Shown: piece by piece, positions 2,779 to 61,584 of the stretch
How the letters are laid out: every line of letters begins with the position of its first letter
Numbering within the stretch: the stretch's first letter is position 1
Source: Cyanobium sp. Tous-M-B4
Lineage (GTDB): Bacteria; Cyanobacteriota; Cyanobacteriia; PCC-6307; Cyanobiaceae
NCBI RefSeq assembly: GCF_024345395.1
Contig: NZ_JAGQBA010000001.1
Span: 248,001 to 312,000, forward strand
Length of the DNA: 64,000 nucleotides
Direction of reading: 5' to 3'
Program-made: the position numbers and the translations under genes
The notes under the pieces: generated by a model
Told to the model about the DNA's origin: nothing
Seen by the model: only the letters and a program-made list of their open reading frames with translations
Databases searched by the model: none

Positions 2779-4608
2779 ATGACCCTCACCCCTTCCCGCC
2801 CCGTCCCTGAAGCCAGCAGCGAAGAGCAGCAGCGTCTAGAGGTTGAGCTACTGATTGGTGAGCCGGTGCTGCAAGCAATCGAGTTGCAGGCCCTTGGTCA
2901 AGACTTACTTTTTACGGGCAAAGGGCTGCCAGAGGCGCGCTGGCGCGAACTGGGCGCCTTGCCCCTTCAAGAAGCCAATGGAAGATTGGTAGTTGCCGTA
3001 CCGAGCAACTGGGGGCCCCAGCAACGCCAGAATTTAAGTGAGGAATTGCAACGTGCCGGCTTCAACGCGGAGCTGAAGTTGGCCTTAGCGACAAATCTCA
3101 CAACTGCGCTCACGCCAAAAGCACCAACTCCTTCTCCCGCAGCCTCCAGACCAGCCCAACCACGACCACCTGCAAGCTTTAACGCCCCCCGCTCCTTAAC
3201 CAAAGACCTAGGCATCCCGGGCACCTCCGAAGGACAGCGGCAAGAGGTCGCCGATGTCGAAGATCTGGAGATCAATGCGGCAGCTGCCAGCAGCAGTGCC
3301 AATGCGTCACCAATCGTCAGCTTGGTGGACCGGATCCTGATCGAGGCTCTTACCTCTGGAGCCAGTGATATTCACGTGGAACCCCAGGAAAACACCCTGG
3401 AAATCCGCTTTCGCCTCGACGGTGTACTGCAGAAGCACTTTGAGGATCTGCCAAAGAGCCTGACGCCGGCCGTGACATCACGCATCAAAATCATGGCGGA
3501 GCTGGACATCGCCGAACGGCGATTGCCTCAAGACGGCCGCATCAGGCGCATGTTCCGCGGCCGCAAAATGGATTTCCGGGTTAGCACTTTACCCAGCCGT
3601 AACGGTGAAAAAATATGCTTGCGCCTACTCGACAGCGGCGCCACCCAGCTCGGCCTGGAAACCCTGATCACCGATGCGGATGCCCGCAGAACCCTGCGGG
3701 AGCTTGGATCTAAGCCCTACGGAATGATTCTGGTAACGGGCCCGACCGGCTCGGGCAAATCGACCACCCTCTACGCCCTACTGGCTGAGCGCAACGATCC
3801 AGGCATCAACATTTCGACGGTTGAAGACCCAATCGAATACACCCTGCATGGCATCACCCAAACCCAAGTAAACCGAGAGAAGGGGCTCGATTTCAGTACG
3901 GCGCTACGTGCCTTCATGCGCCAGGATCCCGACGTTTTGCTGGTGGGAGAAACCCGCGACCTGGAGACCGCCAAAACGGCGATCGAGGCCGCACTTACCG
4001 GCCACCTAGTGATGACCACCCTGCACTGCAACGACGCAGCCAGCGCCATCGCCCGCCTCGATGAAATGGGTGTGGAGCCCTTCATGGTGAGCGCATCCCT
4101 GCTGGGCATCGTGTCCCAGCGGCTGCTGCGACGGGTGTGCTCGGCCTGCCGAATCAGCTACACCCCCAACCCGGAAGAACTGGCGCGTTTTGGTCTTTTG
4201 AGTAGCCACGAAACCGAGGTGACCTTCTTCAGGGCCAACACCCAGAACCGCAACCAGGAAGGCTGCTGCCCTGCTTGCAACGGTGCGGGCTACAAAGGAA
4301 GGGTTGGAGTTTACGAAATCCTGCGCATGACGGACACCTTGGCAGCAGCTGTCGCCAAGAGGGAAACCACCGATGTACTGCGACGAATGGCGCTTGAAAA
4401 CGGCATGAAAACCCTTTTGGGCTACGGGCTGCAGCTAGTGCGCGAAGGTCACACAACCCTGGCCGAGGTCGAACGGATGCTGCTCACTGATTCGGGGCTG
4501 GAATCAGAACGCCGCTCCAAGTCACTGAGCACCCTCACCTGCAGCAGCTGCGGCGCCGGGCTCCATGACGATTGGCTCGAATGTCCCTACTGTCTAACCA
4601 GCCGCTGA
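2779..4608 (+). CDS. pilB: PilB/GspE type IV pilus extension ATPase with an extra C-terminal zinc ribbon
   Basis: A 609-residue secretion ATPase that powers assembly of type IV pili at the cytoplasmic face. An N-terminal MshEN-like region and a Pro/Ala-rich linker precede the ATPase core. Visible motifs are Walker A GPTGSGKS at 321-328, the Asp box VEDPIEYT, Walker B DPDVLLVGETRD near 383, and the His box TGHLVMTTLH. The family's internal tetracysteine site is present (CSAC from 454, CPAC further on). The last 22 residues add a second pair of CxxC motifs (C588, C591, C602, C605), which I do not know from standard PilB. It is followed after 7 bp by pilT and then pilC, an apparent operon without pilins or pilMNOPQ nearby. 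Confidence 0.93.
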   Translation: MTLTPSRPVPEASSEEQQRLEVELLIGEPVLQAIELQALGQDLLFTGKGLPEARWRELGALPLQEANGRLVVAVPSNWGPQQRQNLSEELQRAGFNAELKLALATNLTTALTPKAPTPSPAASRPAQPRPPASFNAPRSLTKDLGIPGTSEGQRQEVADVEDLEINAAAASSSANASPIVSLVDRILIEALTSGASDIHVEPQENTLEIRFRLDGVLQKHFEDLPKSLTPAVTSRIKIMAELDIAERRLPQDGRIRRMFRGRKMDFRVSTLPSRNGEKICLRLLDSGATQLGLETLITDADARRTLRELGSKPYGMILVTGPTGSGKSTTLYALLAERNDPGINISTVEDPIEYTLHGITQTQVNREKGLDFSTALRAFMRQDPDVLLVGETRDLETAKTAIEAALTGHLVMTTLHCNDAASAIARLDEMGVEPFMVSASLLGIVSQRLLRRVCSACRISYTPNPEELARFGLLSSHETEVTFFRANTQNRNQEGCCPACNGAGYKGRVGVYEILRMTDTLAAAVAKRETTDVLRRMALENGMKTLLGYGLQLVREGHTTLAEVERMLLTDSGLESERRSKSLSTLTCSSCGAGLHDDWLECPYCLTSR

Positions 4609-4615
4609 GCGCCCC

Positions 4616-5695
4616 ATGGCCGTGATGATTGAAGACTTGATGACCCAGCTTGTGAAGGATGGCGGCAGTGATCTCCATATCAGTGCAGGCCTACCTCCCT
4701 ATGGAAGGTTCAACGGTCAACTCAGGCCAATACATGATGATTCCTTGGACGAAGAAAGCTGCAATAAACTAATCTTCTCGATGCTAAATAATGCCCAGCG
4801 CAAGCAGCTAGAGCAAACCTGGGAATTAGATTGCGCCTATGGCCTTAAAGGGATCGCCCGCTTCAGGGTTAATGTTTATCGCCAAAGGGGTACCTACGCG
4901 GCCTGCCTGCGAGCCCTTGGCAACAGCGTGCCCACGCTAGAAAGCCTGGGACTACCACCGATTGTGGAGGAAATAAGCCATATGCCCAAAGGGCTGGTTC
5001 TGGTAACAGGCCCCACCGGCTCAGGCAAAACCACAACCTTGGCGGCCATACTCGAACACATAAATCAAACCCGAGCAGAACATATATTGACCATTGAAGA
5101 TCCAATTGAATTCACATATAAACCGGTAAAAAGTGTCATCCATCAACGCCAGCTCAACGATGACACCCGCAGTTTTGCCAATGCCCTAAAGGCAGCCCTT
5201 CGGGAAGATCCCGATGTAATCCTGGTGGGTGAGCTCCGAGATCTGGACACCATCCAATTAGCAATTACGGCAGCTGAGACCGGTCACCTGGTATTCGGCA
5301 CGCTGCACACCAGTTCGGCCGCCCAGACCGTGGACCGCATGGTGGATGTTTTTCCTCCCACCCAGCAAACCCAGATTCGGGTCCAGCTAAGCAGCAGCCT
5401 TGTGGCCGTTTTTGCCCAGACCCTGTGCAAACGGCACAATCCAAGCCCCGGCCAATTTGGACGCGTCATGGCCCAGGAGATCATGATCAATACACCAGCC
5501 ACCGCAAACCTGATCAGGGAAGGTAAAACCGCTCAGCTTTACTCTGCAATTCAGACAGGCGGTCAACTATCAATGCAAACGCTGGAAAAAGCCCTAGGGG
5601 ATCTGGTGCTCAGCAACCAAGTCACGATGGATGAAGCCCTAGTAAAAACCTCAAAGCCTGAAGAGCTGAAACGCTTAGTCAACCAACTGGGCTGA
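4616..5695 (+). CDS. pilT: PilT type IV pilus retraction ATPase
   Basis: A 359-residue PilT, the hexameric ATPase that disassembles type IV pili and drives twitching and DNA uptake. The N-terminal PAS-like domain is followed by the RecA-like ATPase with Walker A GPTGSGKT at 132-139, the Asp box TIEDPIEFTY, Walker B REDPDVILVGELRDL and the His box TGHLVFGTLHT. The C-terminal helices include NLIREGKTAQLYSAIQTG, the region essential for retraction in PilT proteins. The length is normal for the family. It starts 7 bp after pilB, and pilC follows 24 bp downstream. Divergence from PilB (no tetracysteine site) supports PilT over a second extension ATPase. Confidence 0.94.
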   Translation: MAVMIEDLMTQLVKDGGSDLHISAGLPPYGRFNGQLRPIHDDSLDEESCNKLIFSMLNNAQRKQLEQTWELDCAYGLKGIARFRVNVYRQRGTYAACLRALGNSVPTLESLGLPPIVEEISHMPKGLVLVTGPTGSGKTTTLAAILEHINQTRAEHILTIEDPIEFTYKPVKSVIHQRQLNDDTRSFANALKAALREDPDVILVGELRDLDTIQLAITAAETGHLVFGTLHTSSAAQTVDRMVDVFPPTQQTQIRVQLSSSLVAVFAQTLCKRHNPSPGQFGRVMAQEIMINTPATANLIREGKTAQLYSAIQTGGQLSMQTLEKALGDLVLSNQVTMDEALVKTSKPEELKRLVNQLG

Positions 5696-54090: not shown

Positions 54091-55224
54091 ATGACAGCCA
54101 AGCGTCGTCAATTCATCTCCCCCTTCCAGTACAACCCAGGCAAAGACCCCACGGTGGTCACCTATTTGCAGGGCCTTAAGGGTGGTGACGCACCGGGCAC
54201 TTTCCTGTTGGTTGGCGCTAACAATTCGCCGGGCCCTACCCCGTTGGGTTTGGTATACCAGGGGCCCTTGGATGCGGTGGAGAAAAACGGTGTTAGCGGT
54301 TCCGGCACCTGGAGCACCGTGGCCGTGCCAAAGAAATTCGGCGCTGCGGGAACCAGCGTGTATGGCCCCGACAATCTCGGTGCCGGCCTGGGCAATCTCG
54401 TGGGCGCTTATACCCGTGATCTGCGCGGTAAGACTCCATCGGCGAACAATCCAGCCGTTGTTGGCTTCGTCTACACCGGAGCGGTGGATGGCACGACGGG
54501 TCGCGGTTGGCGCAGTGTGCAGGGCACCACTCAGCTGGGCACGAAGGGGACCTACACCTTTGTCCATTCCGTCGATGGGGGCCTGGCAGTCGGGAACACC
54601 GATAACGCCGATGTCGATGGCATCACCGGTTACTTCAGCCTCAGTTCCACCGCTTTCATCGTTGAGTTGGCTACGGGCCGCCAAATCCCCATCCGCTTCC
54701 CGGGAGAGCGCGATCCGTTGGTGACCCACACGGCTTATGGAATCTGGGCCAATGGCAAAGGTTCTTACACAATTGCTGGGGGATCTGGCGACGCCTTGAA
54801 TCGATCAGGAGGGCGATTAGAAGCAGGTGAAGGATATCTGATTGATTACGACAGCATCACGGGTAAGTTCTCGAACTACACGAACTTCTCTTATCGAAAT
54901 CGAGATAAGAATTTGATAAGCCACTTTGAAGGGATTTATCGCACAGATAATGGCAATTACCGGCTGCCTGCTACCAGTGTTGGCCTGAACGCTAAGGATG
55001 ACCTTTCCATCGCTTCCATCGTCACTGTAAAACGCAACGAAAGGGGTGGATTTCGTGCCAAGGCCAGTTGGCAGGATTTGGATGTGAGGCGTAGTAGCGA
55101 TGGAGAGGACAGCGTGCTGAGTACCGCTAATTCGCTGTACGGGGATGTGACAGTTGGCTTTGCCAATTACCCAGACGGCAACGGCGGCCTAACTCAGCTC
55201 GATTATGTGACTCAGCTGTTATGA
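54091..55224 (+). CDS. beta-rich repetitive protein, unrecognised
   Basis: 377 residues without a signal peptide or membrane segment, opening MTAKRRQFISPFQYNPGKDP. The sequence repeats loosely every 50-60 residues a pattern of Tyr-Gly strands and turns: LGLVYQGPLDA, NLVGAYTRDL, VVGFVYTGAVDG, ITGYFSLSS, AYGIWANGKGSYTIAGGS, HFEGIYRTDNGNYRLPA. This suggests a beta-propeller or similar fold of about six units. GC falls in the last third. It is divergent from the lipoprotein gene (162-bp gap) and convergent with acnB (13 bp). I cannot name the family; it looks accessory to the conserved gene order around it. Confidence 0.6.
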   Translation: MTAKRRQFISPFQYNPGKDPTVVTYLQGLKGGDAPGTFLLVGANNSPGPTPLGLVYQGPLDAVEKNGVSGSGTWSTVAVPKKFGAAGTSVYGPDNLGAGLGNLVGAYTRDLRGKTPSANNPAVVGFVYTGAVDGTTGRGWRSVQGTTQLGTKGTYTFVHSVDGGLAVGNTDNADVDGITGYFSLSSTAFIVELATGRQIPIRFPGERDPLVTHTAYGIWANGKGSYTIAGGSGDALNRSGGRLEAGEGYLIDYDSITGKFSNYTNFSYRNRDKNLISHFEGIYRTDNGNYRLPATSVGLNAKDDLSIASIVTVKRNERGGFRAKASWQDLDVRRSSDGEDSVLSTANSLYGDVTVGFANYPDGNGGLTQLDYVTQLL

Positions 55225-55237
55225 GCTGACCTGAGCC

Positions 55238-57898
55238 TCACACCCCCGCCAGCACCTGGGCTTCCTGCTCGCTGCTCAGCACGCGGCCGCTGTCTTCGAA
55301 GCCTTCGATCTGATCGAAGTTGAGGTAGCGGTAGAGCTCGGCGCCGTAGGGATCGATCTTTTCGGCGGCGACTTTTAGGTATTCGTTTCTGGAGGGAATG
55401 CGGCCCAGCTGGGCGCACACCGCCGCTAGTTCGGCGCTGCCCAGGTACACCTGGGCGCCGTTGCCGAGGCGGTTGTTGAAGTTGCGGGTGCTGGTGGAAA
55501 ACACCGTGGTGTCGTTTTCGACTCGGGCTTGATTGCCCATGCACAGGGAGCAGCCCGGCATCTCCATGCGCGAGCCGGCCGCTTCGAAGATGGCGTAGTA
55601 GCCCTCCTCCTTGAGCATCTCCTCGTCCATGCGGGTGGGGGGGCATACCCAGAGCCGCGCGGAATTTTCGCCCTGCCCTTTGAGCACGTTGGCCGCGGCG
55701 CGGTAGTGGCCGATGTTGGTCATGCAGCTGCCAATGAACACCTCATCTATGGCCGCGCCGGCTACTTCGGAGAGGGTTTTGACGTTGTCGGGGTCGTTGG
55801 GGCAGGCCAGGATCGGTTCTGTGATCTGGTTGAGATCGATCTCGATCACGGCGGCGTATTCGGCATCGGCATCGGCCTCCAGCAGCACCGGGTTGGCCAG
55901 CCAGGCCTCCATCGCCTTGATGCGGCGGGCCAGGGTGCGCCCATCGCCGTAGCCCCGGGCAATCATGTTTTTGAGCAGCGCCACGTTGCTGCTTAGGTAT
56001 TCGCTCACCGTTTCAACGCTGAGCTTGATGGTGCTGCCGGCGCAGGAGCGCTCGGCGGTGGCGTCGGTGAGCTCAAAGGCCTGCTCCAGCTTTAGATCGG
56101 GCAGCCCCTCGATCTCCATGATCCGGCCGTTGAACACGTTTTTTTTGCCTTCTTTGGCCACGGTCAGCAGGCCCTGCTGAATCGCCACGTAGGGAATCGC
56201 ATTCACCACATCGCGCAGGGTGACGCCCGGCTGCAGCTTGCCTGTGAACTTCACCAGCACCGATTCGGGCATGTCCAGCGGCATGGCGCCGATGGCGGCG
56301 GCGAAGGCCACCAGGCCGGAGCCGGCCGGGAAGGAGATGCCGAGCGGGAAACGGGTGTGGCTGTCGCCGCCGGTGCCCACGGTGTCGGGCAGGAGCATGC
56401 GGTTGAGCCAGCTGTGGATGATGCCGTCGCCAGGGCGCAGGGCCACGCCGCCGCGGGACGCCATGAAATCCGGCAGCTCGGCGTGGGTCTTGAGATCCAC
56501 CGGCTTGGGATAGGCGGCGGTGTGGCAGAAGCTCTGCATCACCAGATCGGCGGAGAAGCCCAGGCAGGCCAGCTCTTTCATCTCATCGCGGGTCATGGGC
56601 CCGGTGGTGTCCTGGGAGCCCACGGTGGTCATCAGCGGCTCGCAGCTGCTGCCGGGGCGCACGCCCGCCAGGCCGCAGGCCTTGCCCACCATCTTTTGGG
56701 CCAGGGTGAAGCCCTTGCCGGTGTCGGCCGGGGCCACTGGGCGGATGAACAGATCGGAGGGGGCCAGCCCCAGCTGGGCGCGCAACTTATCGGTGAGCGA
56801 GCGGCCGATCAGCAGTGGGATGCGGCCGCCGGCGCGCACCTCATCGGTGATCGTGCTGGGCTTGAGCTCGAAGCGGGCCACGATCTCTCCGGCATTCGCT
56901 TCGCCGCTGGCCCGCTCGATCGTGCCGGCGTAGGGGCGGATCGTGATCACATCGCCGGAGTTGAGCGCCGTTACGTCGCACTCGATCGGCAGGGCGCCGG
57001 AATCTTCGGCGGTGTTGAAGAAGATTGGCGCGATCTTGCCGCCCAGGATCACACCGCCGCCGCGCTTGTTGGGCACGTGGGGGATGTCGCTGCCGGTGTG
57101 CCAAAGCACGGAGTTGATTGCGGATTTGCGCGAGCTGCCTGTGCCCACCACATCGCCTACGTAGGCCACCGGGTGACCTTTGGTTTTGAGCTGGCTGATC
57201 AGCTCCAGGCCGCCGGGCATGCGGGTTTCCAGCATCGCCATGGCGTGCAGGGGGATGTCGGGCCGGGTGGTGGCGTGGGTGGCGGGGGAGAGGTCGTCGG
57301 TGTTGGTTTCACCCTCCACCTTGAACACCGTCACGGTGATCTCGGCGGGCAGCTCGGCTTTGGCGGTGAACCACTCGGCGGCGGCCCAGCTGTCGATCAC
57401 CTGCTGGCCGTAGGGGTTGCCAGCCGCCAGCTCCAGCACCTCGTTGTAGGCGTCGTAGACGAGCAGCGTTCTGCTCAGGCCCTCGGCGGCGGCGCTAGCG
57501 ATGGTCGGATCGGAGTTGCTGAGCAGCTCGATCAAGGCGCTCACGTTGTAGCCGCCGATCATCGTGGCCAGCAGCTTTACGGCCGCCACGGGGCTCAGGA
57601 GGGGGGTAGTAGCCGTGCCCTTGGCCACGGCCGAGAGCCAGCCGGCCTTCACGTAGGCCGCCTCATCCACGCCGGGGGGGATGCGCTCGCTCAGCAGGTG
57701 CAGCAGGAAAGCTTCCTCGCCGGCGGGCGGTGCGCTCAGCAGCTCTGTGAGGGCACTGGCTTGTGCGGCGCTCAGGGGCAGGGCGGGCACCCCCAGGGCT
57801 TCGCGTTCGGCCGCAGCGGCGCGGTAGCTGCTCAGCAGCTCGGCGGGTGGGATAGCGGCGTCGGGCATGGGCCGTGGGGTGATCATCTCTAGTGTCAT
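55238..57898 (-). CDS. acnB: aconitate hydratase B
   Basis: About 886 residues from ATG 57898. AcnB interconverts citrate and isocitrate with a [4Fe-4S] cluster. The HEAT-like first domain and swivelling domain come first ([37 protein letters not shown]). Next come the cluster and active-site regions: [38 protein letters not shown], and [20 protein letters not shown], the cysteines being cluster ligands. SRNFNNRLG-type (here [20 protein letters not shown]) follows. A longer ORF starts at 57958, but [18 protein letters not shown] is the likelier N-terminus. Confidence 0.95.
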
Positions 57899-58022
57899 TC
57901 TCGTCACCGATGGGTCCCTGCTTGGTGAGCAATGCTGCAGAACGAGAGCGTCCGCCATGGCGAGCCGGCATCCCGGCCTAAATGCTGATATGGTTTTTAT
58001 GCATAGTTAAATCAAATAAGTT

Positions 58023-58850
58023 GTGATAAGCGAAGCTTTATTGAGGCAGAATCAAGATGATTGCTTTCAGATATCTGCTGATACGGACATCCATCGTGAA
58101 CTAAGCCAGCTCTGTCACGATTTGGCAGAACATCCTCTCCTTATGCAATTGGCCCGGGGTTGTTTTGCTCCGGCAGAAGTTGCCTGGATTTATCGGCGTC
58201 GCAAAACTATTGTTGATAGCTTCCTGCCGATGCTTTCGCTAGCGCAACAGATGGCCGAGGCAGCAGGCCGGGTCGAACTTGTGCGGGCCCTGCAGATCAA
58301 TATTGCTGATGAAATGGGCCTGAATCCGGATACAGGCCAAGAGACTGGTGAGGGAGCGCATGCGGAATGGGGAAAGCGGTTGAGTTCGGCCTTAGACCTC
58401 CTGGATCCTCCGGCTCTCAAGAGTTGCCATCTTTCACGCCTACCAGCGGAATCATGGGATCCCTATCCCATTGATCCACAGGACAGCCTGGCGGTAATAG
58501 TTGGGATGATCATGGCAACAGAGAAGTGCATCCCCATCGAATATCAGGCCTTTTTAAAGGGTTTCAGGATCGCTTTCCCTTCGTTTGCTGACCCGTCCAA
58601 CGAGGATTGCCTAAGGCAGCTCACCGATCACATTGATCATGATGAGCGCCAACATCTGCCGGATCTGATCGATGGTTACCTCGGGCATTCGCCAGGGACT
58701 AGGGGCGAAGTTCTTGCCTTAGATGCATTACAGCGGAGTGAAGCCACCGATCTGGCTAGGGGGATGGAAAGGATTCTGAGCCTTCGCTATAATTTTTACG
58801 ACTCTCTCCAACACTTGTTCGATCAGCTTTCGCCTGTCACCCAGGGCTGA
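58023..58850 (+). CDS. heme-oxygenase-like diiron protein (CADD/UndA/TenA superfamily)
   Basis: 275 residues from a GTG start. All-helical, with the spaced metal-ligand pattern of heme-oxygenase-like diiron oxidases: E110-x-x-H113 in EGAHAEWG, E167 in IMATEKCIP, then H203 and D207 in DHIDHDERQH. The last histidine is at 211, one residue later than the HxxxDxxH spacing I remember for UndA, CADD and SznF; Gln210 sits at the usual place. Relatives cleave C-C or C-N bonds, oxidise amines, make pABA or make alkenes, so the reaction is open. GC is near 50%, below the flanks. Convergent with an unknown gene, the ends overlapping 14 bp. Confidence 0.7.
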   Translation: MISEALLRQNQDDCFQISADTDIHRELSQLCHDLAEHPLLMQLARGCFAPAEVAWIYRRRKTIVDSFLPMLSLAQQMAEAAGRVELVRALQINIADEMGLNPDTGQETGEGAHAEWGKRLSSALDLLDPPALKSCHLSRLPAESWDPYPIDPQDSLAVIVGMIMATEKCIPIEYQAFLKGFRIAFPSFADPSNEDCLRQLTDHIDHDERQHLPDLIDGYLGHSPGTRGEVLALDALQRSEATDLARGMERILSLRYNFYDSLQHLFDQLSPVTQG

Positions 58851-59670
58851 CACTTTCTTGGTGCCGTATCAGCCAACGCTCGGCGATTGCGGTCTGGCTG
58901 GTTTGAACGTCTCCATTCAGGCCTGCTCGATCAAACGGTTTCAGACAGCTTCCCGGCACGGGGACTATGCCCTTGGCCATTTCCACACAGGCCTGGCCGA
59001 CGGCAAGAATTGCGCGATTAGTTGACTTACATGCCCATGTCGATTCGCATGAATGCTCCTCGCTTTCATGGCGAAATAAACGCAAAGTAATGGCTTCTTT
59101 TTCGAGTGAGCAATGGCTAGCTTTGAAGCCTAATTGGGCCATGTAGTGATCTGTCGAAGAGGATCTACCGCCTTGTTTAAGCGTTCGGCTTTCGGGAAAG
59201 ATGAAAACAGGTGTCTGATCTAAAAATGGAGGATTGTTATTGTTGTAGTATGTTGGTAAAAATAGTGAATCTACTAAAAGTCGTGCCATCCTGGCTGTTG
59301 TCGACTCCCTGCCGGAGATACGATCTTGATCGATGGCTTTGCGATCTAGGTCATGAAGGTAAGTGGAGAGCATCACGCCGTAGGCCTTGAAAGTGCTGCC
59401 GTGAATGCCGATGAAATCAAACAAAGGTAATATCTGGGATTGTTCCGGGGAGCTGTCGTCTTCGCAAAGGATAGTGATCAGGTTGAGTTGCAACCTTTCC
59501 GGACGATTGTGGATTTGTTCGACCCGCTGGAGAAAGCAGGTGACCTGCTCCGTGCCTTTAAGAGCGAGATCCTTGATTAGATGATATCTGCTGAGCTGGG
59601 AGGCCTGAATGTCTATGGCTGCCGGGGTAAGTGAGTCATCAATGGGGATGCTTTTGGCTAGAAATCTCAT
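58837..59670 (-). CDS. unrecognised protein convergent with the diiron gene
   Basis: About 277 residues from ATG 59670 (a longer frame begins at 59769). I recognise no family. It is soluble, with no signal or membrane segment. Notable stretches are YHLIKDLALKGTEQVTCFLQ, LFDFIGIHGSTFKAYGVMLS, an Asn run YYNNNNPPF, and VFIFPESRTLKQGG. A cluster of Cys and His lies in the C-terminal third (HESEEHSCESTWACKS). GC dips to about 33% around 59221-59280, in an area otherwise near 45-50%, pointing to transfer. The stop overlaps the diiron gene by 14 bp; the start side faces the DAHP synthase gene. Confidence 0.6.
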   Translation of the reverse strand: MRFLAKSIPIDDSLTPAAIDIQASQLSRYHLIKDLALKGTEQVTCFLQRVEQIHNRPERLQLNLITILCEDDSSPEQSQILPLFDFIGIHGSTFKAYGVMLSTYLHDLDRKAIDQDRISGRESTTARMARLLVDSLFLPTYYNNNNPPFLDQTPVFIFPESRTLKQGGRSSSTDHYMAQLGFKASHCSLEKEAITLRLFRHESEEHSCESTWACKSTNRAILAVGQACVEMAKGIVPVPGSCLKPFDRAGLNGDVQTSQTAIAERWLIRHQESVSPG

Positions 59671-59852
59671 TGAGCTACATCCTGTGTGCGTCACGTTAAT
59701 CGTCCCCCCTTGTTGGGATCGGGCTGGGGTGAGCATTCGCCCTCCGGAGGACAGGATGAGCTTGCCCATGCCCGCATGGACCGATTGTGCAGATGCTCCT
59801 GTACCCAGGCAGCTTCTAGGCTGGTTTGCCTGCCTCAGCGCCTAGCCGGTTC

Positions 59853-60896
59853 ATGTTTCCCACCTCCGATCTCCACATCGTGGAAACCCGGCCGCTGGTG
59901 CCTCCGGCGCTCTTGCACCGCGAACTGCCGATCAGCGATCGTTCAACGGCAACGGTCCAGCAAGCCAGAGAACGTATTAAGGCGATCCTGCATGGCAGTG
60001 ATTCCCGTCTGCTGGTGATCGTGGGGCCCTGCTCGGTGCACGATGTGGCCGCGGCCCACGAATACGCCGCGGCAATCGCCGAGGCCCATGAGCGCTACAA
60101 GGACGCGCTCGAGATCGTGATGCGGGTTTATTTCGAGAAGCCCCGCACCACCGTGGGCTGGAAGGGCCTGATCAATGATCCCCACCTCGATGGCAGCTAC
60201 GACATCAATACGGGACTGCGTGTGGCCCGCGGCCTGCTGCTGCACCTAGCCGAGATGGGCCTGCCGGCGGCTACCGAGCTGCTCGATCCGGTGGTGCCCC
60301 AATACATCGCCGATCTGATCAGTTGGACGGCCATCGGCGCCCGCACCACCGAAAGCCAGACCCACCGGGAGATGGCCTCGGGTTTGTCGATGCCGATCGG
60401 CTTCAAAAATGGCACCGACGGCAGTGCCATCACCGCCATCAATGCCATGGAAGCGGCGGCGAAGACCCACCATTTCCTGGGCATCAACCACGACGGTCAC
60501 GCCGCCATTGTGACCACCACGGGCAATCCCGATGGCCATCTGGTCTTGCGGGGTGGCAAGCGTGGCACCAACTACCACCCGGAGGCGGTGCAGGAAGCCG
60601 CTGCTGAGCTAGCCAAAGCCGGCCTGCCGCCTCGGGTGATGGTGGATTGCAGCCACGGCAACTCCAACAAGGACTATCGCCGCCAGGGAGAGGTGGCAGC
60701 CCAGGTGGCAGCCCAGCTGCGCGCCGGCTCTGGCCACGTGATGGGCGTGATGCTGGAGAGCCATCTGGTGGCTGGTAGCCAGAAGATTCCGTCAGACCTA
60801 AGCCAGCTCACCTACGGCCAGAGCATCACCGATGCCTGCATCGATCTGGCCACCACCTCGGAGGTGCTCGAAACCCTGGCTGAGGCGGTGCGCTAG
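59853..60896 (+). CDS. 3-deoxy-7-phosphoheptulonate (DAHP) synthase, class I (AroG/F/H type)
   Basis: 347 residues from ATG 59853. It condenses PEP and erythrose 4-phosphate, the first shikimate-pathway step. Family motifs: LLVIVGPCSVHD, RVYFEKPRTTVGWKGLINDP, LPAATELLDPV, IGARTTESQTHREMASGLS, PIGFKNGTDG, LVLRGGKRGTNY, VDCSHGNSNKD and ESHLVAG. It matches the E. coli AroG/AroF/AroH type; feedback specificity cannot be read with certainty. AroE of the same pathway is at 45146. Confidence 0.94.
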   Translation: MFPTSDLHIVETRPLVPPALLHRELPISDRSTATVQQARERIKAILHGSDSRLLVIVGPCSVHDVAAAHEYAAAIAEAHERYKDALEIVMRVYFEKPRTTVGWKGLINDPHLDGSYDINTGLRVARGLLLHLAEMGLPAATELLDPVVPQYIADLISWTAIGARTTESQTHREMASGLSMPIGFKNGTDGSAITAINAMEAAAKTHHFLGINHDGHAAIVTTTGNPDGHLVLRGGKRGTNYHPEAVQEAAAELAKAGLPPRVMVDCSHGNSNKDYRRQGEVAAQVAAQLRAGSGHVMGVMLESHLVAGSQKIPSDLSQLTYGQSITDACIDLATTSEVLETLAEAVR

Positions 60897-60909
60897 CTAA
60901 GCCAGTGCT

Positions 60910-61584
60910 CTAGCTGAGCCGTTGCCAGAGCCAGCCGGCTGCCAGCGGCACCGTGAAGTTGTCGAGGCCCCCCACCGCCACCTGCTCCAGCACCACTGCA
61001 GTGGCGCTGATGGCCAGCAGGGCGGGTAGCTCCGGGTGGGGCAGGCCAGCCGCGATCGCCAGCTGATGCACGAGCAGCAGCATGGCCAGGCTGCCAGCGG
61101 CCATGGCGCCGGTGCCAACGACGGATTTGCGCTGGCCCCACACCAGCCAGCAAGGGGAGCTCACCAGGGGGCCCAGCAGTCCGGCGAGGCCATCACCCAC
61201 GGCCATCACCAGCACGCCAGCGGCTACGGCAGCGGGTTGCTGCGGCCAAAACTGCAGCAGCAGCAGGGTTATTGAGGCCCCATAGGCGATGGTGCCGTAG
61301 CTGGCCCTGCCCACATCTTCGATGGCTGGCAGCAGGCGGAAGCGATGGTTCATTGCCGCCAGCAGCGTGATCAGGCCGGCGGCGGGGATGGCGATCAGGC
61401 GATCGATCCCGGTGGCCCAGGCGATCGGCACCACGGCGCCGGTGCCGATGTGCACCAACTTGCGACTCCATTCCCGTTGACCATTCCAGCGACGCCGCAC
61501 CTGCAGCGCCGCTAGCGCCAACAGGGCCAGCCAGCCAGCAACGGCCGCCACTCCCAGCAGCTGCTGCGACCATCCAGCGGCCAT
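60910..61584 (-). CDS. phytol/dolichol kinase-like membrane protein
   Basis: 224 residues with about six hydrophobic segments. Motifs of the CTP-dependent polyprenol/phytol kinase group are present: EWSRKLVHIGTGAVVPIAWA, MAVGDGLAGLLG and GQRKSVVGTGAMAAGSLAML. In cyanobacteria and plants the homolog (VTE5) phosphorylates phytol from chlorophyll breakdown for tocopherol synthesis, which suits a photosynthetic organism. It is convergent with the DAHP synthase gene, 13 bp apart, and starts 4 bp after the sigma factor stop. Confidence 0.82.
   Translation of the reverse strand: MAAGWSQQLLGVAAVAGWLALLALAALQVRRRWNGQREWSRKLVHIGTGAVVPIAWATGIDRLIAIPAAGLITLLAAMNHRFRLLPAIEDVGRASYGTIAYGASITLLLLQFWPQQPAAVAAGVLVMAVGDGLAGLLGPLVSSPCWLVWGQRKSVVGTGAMAAGSLAMLLLVHQLAIAAGLPHPELPALLAISATAVVLEQVAVGGLDNFTVPLAAGWLWQRLS

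Follow-up and report, generated by a model that had tools for sequence, protein, structure and literature searches.

The window analysed here is a stretch of 64,000 nucleotides from the genome of Cyanobium sp. Tous-M-B4 (2.74 Mb in 11 contigs). Between acnB (55238..57958, minus strand) and a DAHP synthase gene (59853..60896, plus strand, with a probable ATG start at 59853 rather than the TTG at 59826) it carries two genes that face each other. The plus-strand gene (58023..58850, GTG start) encodes a 275-aa protein resembling the heme-oxygenase-like dimetal oxidases (HDOs), hereafter the oxidase, with putative metal ligands E97, H113, E167, H203, D207 and H211. The minus-strand gene, hereafter the partner, runs over 58837..59670 and encodes 277 aa without a family match. 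The two overlap by 14 bp at their 3' ends (58837..58850), which confirms the two convergent ORFs and the overlap that an initial annotation of the DNA had reported. The same annotation described the pair as poorer in GC than its flanks, and the computed values bear this out: 0.522 for the oxidase gene and 0.495 for the partner (from 59670), against 0.664 for acnB and 0.640 for DAHP synthase. At third codon positions GC is 0.52 in both pair genes, against 0.87 and 0.79 in the same two flanking genes. GC drops to about 0.50-0.54 across the second half of a 377-aa ORF without Pfam match (54091-55224, plus strand) that adjoins the 3' end of acnB.

Judged by comparison with homologs from another genus (54% identical for the oxidase, 37% for the partner), both ORFs are protein-coding: the differences are concentrated at third codon positions. 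Against the homologs in genome G722, 163 of 270 third positions differ in the oxidase gene compared to 95 of 270 second positions, and for the partner these counts are 162/266 and 92/266. The longest partner frame (58837-59769, minus strand) would yield 310 aa. The neighbour was correctly taken for a real gene, but its start at 59769 probably does not hold: comparison with the homolog points to the ATG at 59670 as the probable start.

The gene pair lies in an inserted or replaced segment (57831..59852, edges approximate), with conserved acnB sequence on one side and conserved DAHP synthase sequence on the other, that also holds the 5' end of the acnB frame. Identity in blastn to the three nearest relatives stops at about 57830, within the beginning of acnB, and restarts at about 59860, within that of DAHP synthase, so that roughly 2 kb replace the short spacer of the relatives along with the genes' own first codons. 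For the first ~40 codons of acnB (counted from 57958), none of the relatives read offers a close nucleotide match, and the first codons of both flanking genes (57831-57958 and 59826-59862) are unlike those of the nearest relatives. It seems that the exchange altered how two genes of central metabolism begin, in their first codons as well as in the sequence upstream. The starts of DAHP synthase and acnB are faintly like those of G024 and G020, the latter a member of genus g6 (25-32-base matches and a loose protein alignment only). Recombination within the flanking genes would account for the pattern of exchange.

How the site looks elsewhere was read from 40 genomes (counting that of the window) searched for DAHP synthase, of which 36 gave a match; 30 loci of about 4 kb were kept, one of them the window's own. 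The other family members contributed 23 loci, and in every one acnB directly adjoins DAHP synthase; only in the window genome are the two genes separated by ~2 kb of low-GC DNA. In the six loci from other families acnB was not seen, and one further member of the genus gave no DAHP-synthase match.

Scans for mobile or regulatory features yielded little. No tRNA was found within the 64-kb window and no Rfam match at 57000-61000. The pair genes gave no match to phages, plasmids or viral contigs, nor did the oxidase homolog of G722, which was searched alone and against plasmids only. A mobile element was consequently rejected for want of any tRNA, Rfam, phage, plasmid or viral-contig match in the searches run. 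None of four proteins (two of each kind) matches a defence model in PADLOC, and promoter and terminator scans returned no more than shuffled sequences. A perfect 11-nt inverted repeat occurs near both edges of the segment (57862-57872 and 59764-59774); in G722 a 12-nt, 92% inverted repeat, unrelated to that of the window, occurs near both ends of the pair (L044 7402-7413 and 9471-9482). We attach no meaning to either repeat.

The pair is rare and acquired. Among 149 relatives, the window genome included, neither the oxidase gene nor the partner (as a single sequence) was matched outside the window genome. A search of 386 genomes from the phylum added a single weak oxidase-gene match (G122, E 0.0047), which we take as chance and reject: the locus is occupied there by a 603-aa frame of another gene. 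In a collection of 84,980 species, searched in a way that detects close relatives only, there was one match to the oxidase gene, the contig L005 from an uncultured cyanobacterium, whose start cuts the gene off; the genome of this contig is taken to be G734, where the oxidase gene lies on contig 333 (5907 bases). A two-row oxidase profile run on 400 genomes of the family recovered, beyond the window genome, G722 (full length), G734 (partial) and G550 (a remnant), all of them in genus g6 (3 of the 42 g6 genomes searched). Two weak oxidase matches, G676 and G717 (E about 0.004; 17.1 and 16.1 bits), were dropped before counting; G676 gave no match with a better oxidase profile.

The oxidase gene is thus counted in 4 of the 400 family genomes. 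A partner profile matched three genomes in the same set (the window genome, G722 and G550), all of which are among those four. The match in G550 is as weak as the dropped ones (E 0.0056, 17.1 bits) and was kept given that it adjoins the oxidase remnant within one 327-bp stretch of 83% identity. The chance of such an overlap is P 4e-7 (2e-6 with the two weak matches retained) if genomes are independent, which they are not; since G722 and G550 share one site, the independent support for the pair amounts to two sites. The initial annotation had suggested looking for co-occurrence of the two genes. The partner was never found without oxidase-gene sequence (0 of 400 family genomes), but the reverse does not hold: in G734 no partner was found within about 5.4 kb downstream of the oxidase gene, nor elsewhere in the 64%-complete assembly.

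In G722 the pair is again convergent, with an overlap of 34 bp, at a chromosomal site other than that of the window. The partner homolog (L044 7584-8537, plus strand) encodes 317 aa and is 37% identical over 304 alignment columns; the 54% identical oxidase homolog lies at L044 8504-9337 on the minus strand. A glutaredoxin and an ABC-transporter permease flank the pair. G550 shares these outer neighbours and carries other genes in the interval, and the 327-bp remnant runs across the 3' ends of both genes, with the last 29 partner codons still aligning. The proposal of an acquired two-gene system thus gains from the empty site in the relatives, the convergent overlapping pair elsewhere in another genus and the remnants of both genes in G550. 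Downstream of the oxidase gene of L005 (924-1704) there are two short consecutive frames that by eye resemble a broken methyltransferase, the second without Pfam match; they are followed by a TauE/SafE gene and by an amine oxidase fused to a cyclic-nucleotide-binding domain.

In family searches the oxidase remains below threshold throughout. Against Pfam the window protein gives Haem_oxygenas_2 (PF14518; E 0.065, 13.5 bits) and DUF3865 (E 0.14), and the G722 homolog gives Haem_oxygenas_2 as well (E 0.023, 14.9 bits), all below the cut-off (the gathering cut-off of PF14518 is 28.9 bits); the sole match of the G734 fragment is to an unrelated model. NCBIfam returned no match for the oxidase proteins and neither did a profile search of the PDB; the best PDB match of the single window sequence was the CADD-like 3b5o (E 0.42), over a stretch ending N-I-x-x-E-M-G. 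As a yardstick we used 30 cyanobacterial PF14518 proteins from the best-scoring loci, a mixed set: the E-x-G...H pattern of alpha1 is absent from 11 of them, so that not all need be metal enzymes. Aligned with these proteins by hhalign, the oxidase profile reached a probability of 4.7% (P 0.0085), and one of 150 column shuffles matched the real score. The AlphaFold model of the window oxidase, for which the L005 fragment served as alignment, is mostly helical, and at pLDDT 37.8 too poor for judging the seven-helix heme-oxygenase-like fold or the ligand geometry. In G085, from the same family as the window genome, a 304-aa frame (L085, about 3768-4680) encodes a PF14518 protein above the Pfam cut-off; by eye, the genes beside it resemble a DevB/DevC-type exporter.

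The match by position, ligand for ligand, is a stronger argument than these modest statistics. The published ligand order of HDOs is E-H-E-H-(D/E)-H, given in the accessible part of PMC11363339 as an order of residues with variable spacing, and the ligands are mostly a set of three histidines and three carboxylates, according to the portion available of PMC13108848. The hhalign alignment sets E97, H113, E167, H203 and D207 on the PF14518 motif and opens a one-residue gap before H211. E97 and H113 are conserved in both members that cover alpha1, and E167, H203, D207 and H211, together with the likewise invariant H206, in all three members. The initial annotation of a heme-oxygenase-like dimetal enzyme is supported only by the weak family matches and the ligand alignment; four of its ligands (H113, E167, H203 and D207) are conserved, but its ligand list needs one correction. 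It had named E110, with an E-x2-H spacing which we take to be UndA-like; this residue is Arg in G722 and was rejected. The first ligand is likely E97, within the stretch N-I-x-D-E-x-G.

The third helix departs from the HDO motif in spacing, not in its set of residues. All 30 best-scoring cyanobacterial PF14518 loci that were read have HxxxDxxH (8 of them as HIREDERH). The window oxidase has DHIDHDERQH instead (D202-H211; codons at 58626..58655, plus strand), an HxxHDxxxH arrangement that is kept in all three family members (HIDHDERQH, HIEHDEQRH and HIYHDDKRH). The placement of the last histidine at 211 instead of 210 in the initial annotation proved right: position 210 is Q, R and R in the three members, and the conserved histidine is H211. 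In an ideal helix the angle from i is 80 degrees for i+8 and -20 degrees for i+7, so that binding by H211 would require the helix to bulge. Several HDOs have a flexible helix 3, as far as the available text of PMC13108848 goes. The corresponding part of PMC11363339 puts at about 9% the HDO groups without a strong motif prediction, probably owing to variable lengths between possible ligands, and cases of a shifted motif may hence exist unnamed. The plus-strand protein most likely belongs to a divergent subfamily of HDO-like proteins in which the third helix is shifted; as the protein most likely works as an HDO, we keep it within that kind in spite of the missed Pfam cut-off and the helix-3 spacing.

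For the partner, the claim that it belongs to no known family stands: neither partner protein has a meaningful match in Pfam, NCBIfam, PHROG or PADLOC. The best sub-threshold matches of the G722 partner (Pfam E 0.22, NCBIfam E 0.066) both cover short stretches, the sole PDB match of the partner is a ribosomal protein (E 0.22), and a structure model of the partner alone (pLDDT 33.3) is too poor to use. Stretches conserved with the G722 homolog are RYHLI-x-DLA-x-KG, AYGVMLSTY-x-HDLDR, LVDSLF and N-x-AILAVGQ-x-C-x-EM. The Asn run and the Cys/His cluster singled out in the initial annotation are present but mostly not conserved: the Asn run is not shared with the homolog, and in the Cys/His-rich stretch (about residues 186-214 of 277) C187 and H201 are the sole invariant Cys or His residues.

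A GNAT fold was considered for the partner on the basis of the predicted strand order (from a very poor model) and a Y-M-x2-L-G-F stretch. In hhalign, a weak test here, 13 of 60 shuffles scored as high as the partner against an alignment of E. coli RimI, SpeG and YhbS. Against these GNATs singly 3, 5 and 0 of 60 shuffles did so, respectively, and the YhbS match covers 35 N-terminal columns, at a distance from the motif behind the idea. The fold is left unsupported by this test and by Pfam, where the partner proteins have no GNAT match. A regular-expression search for GNATs in the loci read found none.

That a few picocyanobacteria carry the pair as an insertion points to a two-protein addition to metabolism that has not been described before. 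We favour, with a probability of about 0.6, a minimal, laterally transferred two-gene metabolic cassette made up of an HDO-like gene and a gene of a new family. The oxidase would fold as a heme-oxygenase-like helical bundle and bind a dimetal centre through E97 and H113 (alpha1), E167 (alpha2) and H203, D207 and H211 (alpha3); a bulge at the extra alpha3 residue might let H211 reach the metal, or H206 might substitute for it. The enzyme would then activate O2 to oxidise a small molecule. The partner may act in the same pathway by making, presenting or further converting the substrate or product, a role for which the support is thinner. Facing genes cannot share one transcript, which would imply separate control. 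A bolder version, a transferable two-protein oxidative system of picocyanobacteria in which the HDO subfamily has a one-residue helix-3 shift (HxxHDxxxH, possibly with a fourth His ligand) and an obligate partner of a wholly new family, strikes us as unlikely at present.

It might be argued that the genes travel together only as neighbours and that each works alone, the one as an HDO-like tailoring enzyme and the other as an unrelated accessory protein. Convergent genes are not co-transcribed, and the oxidase gene of G734, for which no partner was found downstream or elsewhere in its assembly, fits such independence. Yet the two genes have stayed linked while their proteins diverged to 54% and 37% identity and the chromosomal site changed, and no partner was seen without oxidase-gene sequence in the 400 family genomes; we hold independent functions to be rather unlikely. 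Also unlikely, to our judgement, is that the oxidase keeps the HDO fold with a site other than the standard dimetal one, either mononuclear as in FlcD or using H206 and H211 for another metal. This would agree with Q, R and R at i+7 and with His at i+3 and i+8 in all three members, and FlcD, with Arg at i+7, binds one iron and has its last two ligands replaced by Val and Arg (in the accessible part of PMC11363339). Against this, D207, whose counterpart in FlcD is Val, is invariant here, and so is H211, which could reach the metal with a helix bulge.

A selfish or defensive module, toxin-antitoxin-like or anti-phage instead of metabolic, might explain the patchy and very rare occurrence of the pair, its different sites and its decay in one of the genomes. 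We consider this quite improbable given the lack of PADLOC matches for all four proteins and of phage, plasmid or viral-contig matches in the searches run; moreover, the genes of usual toxin-antitoxin operons do not face each other as these do. That the neighbour is a spurious frame opposite other sequence would be in line with the lack of a meaningful family match in the libraries searched, but is refuted by the 317-aa G722 homolog, 37% identical and with its excess of third-position differences; we give this reading practically no credence.

A literature search returned no description of this gene pair or of helix-3 motifs shifted in this way. The oxidations that HDOs carry out are unusual (decarboxylation, N-oxygenation and carbon excision are examples), and about a dozen HDOs have been functionally validated, going by the available part of a 2026 review (PMC13108848). 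Through its shifted helix-3 motif, such a subfamily tests how much change the HDO metal site can bear, and the two-gene unit, including a partner of an unrecognised family, is small enough to be expressed whole.

With regard to known systems, the significance of the resemblance to the CADD-like 3b5o (the best PDB match) and to DUF3865 (the second Pfam match) is lacking in both cases, and nothing found for the window oxidase points to self-sacrificing p-aminobenzoate synthesis. With the HDOs of PF14518 (UndA, BesC, SznF, AetD and FlcE) it has in common the E-H-E-H-D order, the N-I-x-D-E-x-G stretch and HI-x-x-D-E/D in helix 3. It differs from them in the spacing of E97 and H113 (16 residues, against 10 in the 19 of 30 PF14518 proteins in which E-x-G...H was found), in a last His one position further on, accompanied by an additional invariant His at i+3, in its score below the Pfam cut-off and in its partner gene from no recognised family. 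With FlcD, a mononuclear iron HDO, it shares a residue other than His at i+7 of helix 3 (Arg in FlcD and in two of the three members of the window family); whereas FlcD, as described in the part of the source available, has Val at i+4, the window family keeps Asp at i+4 and His at i+8.
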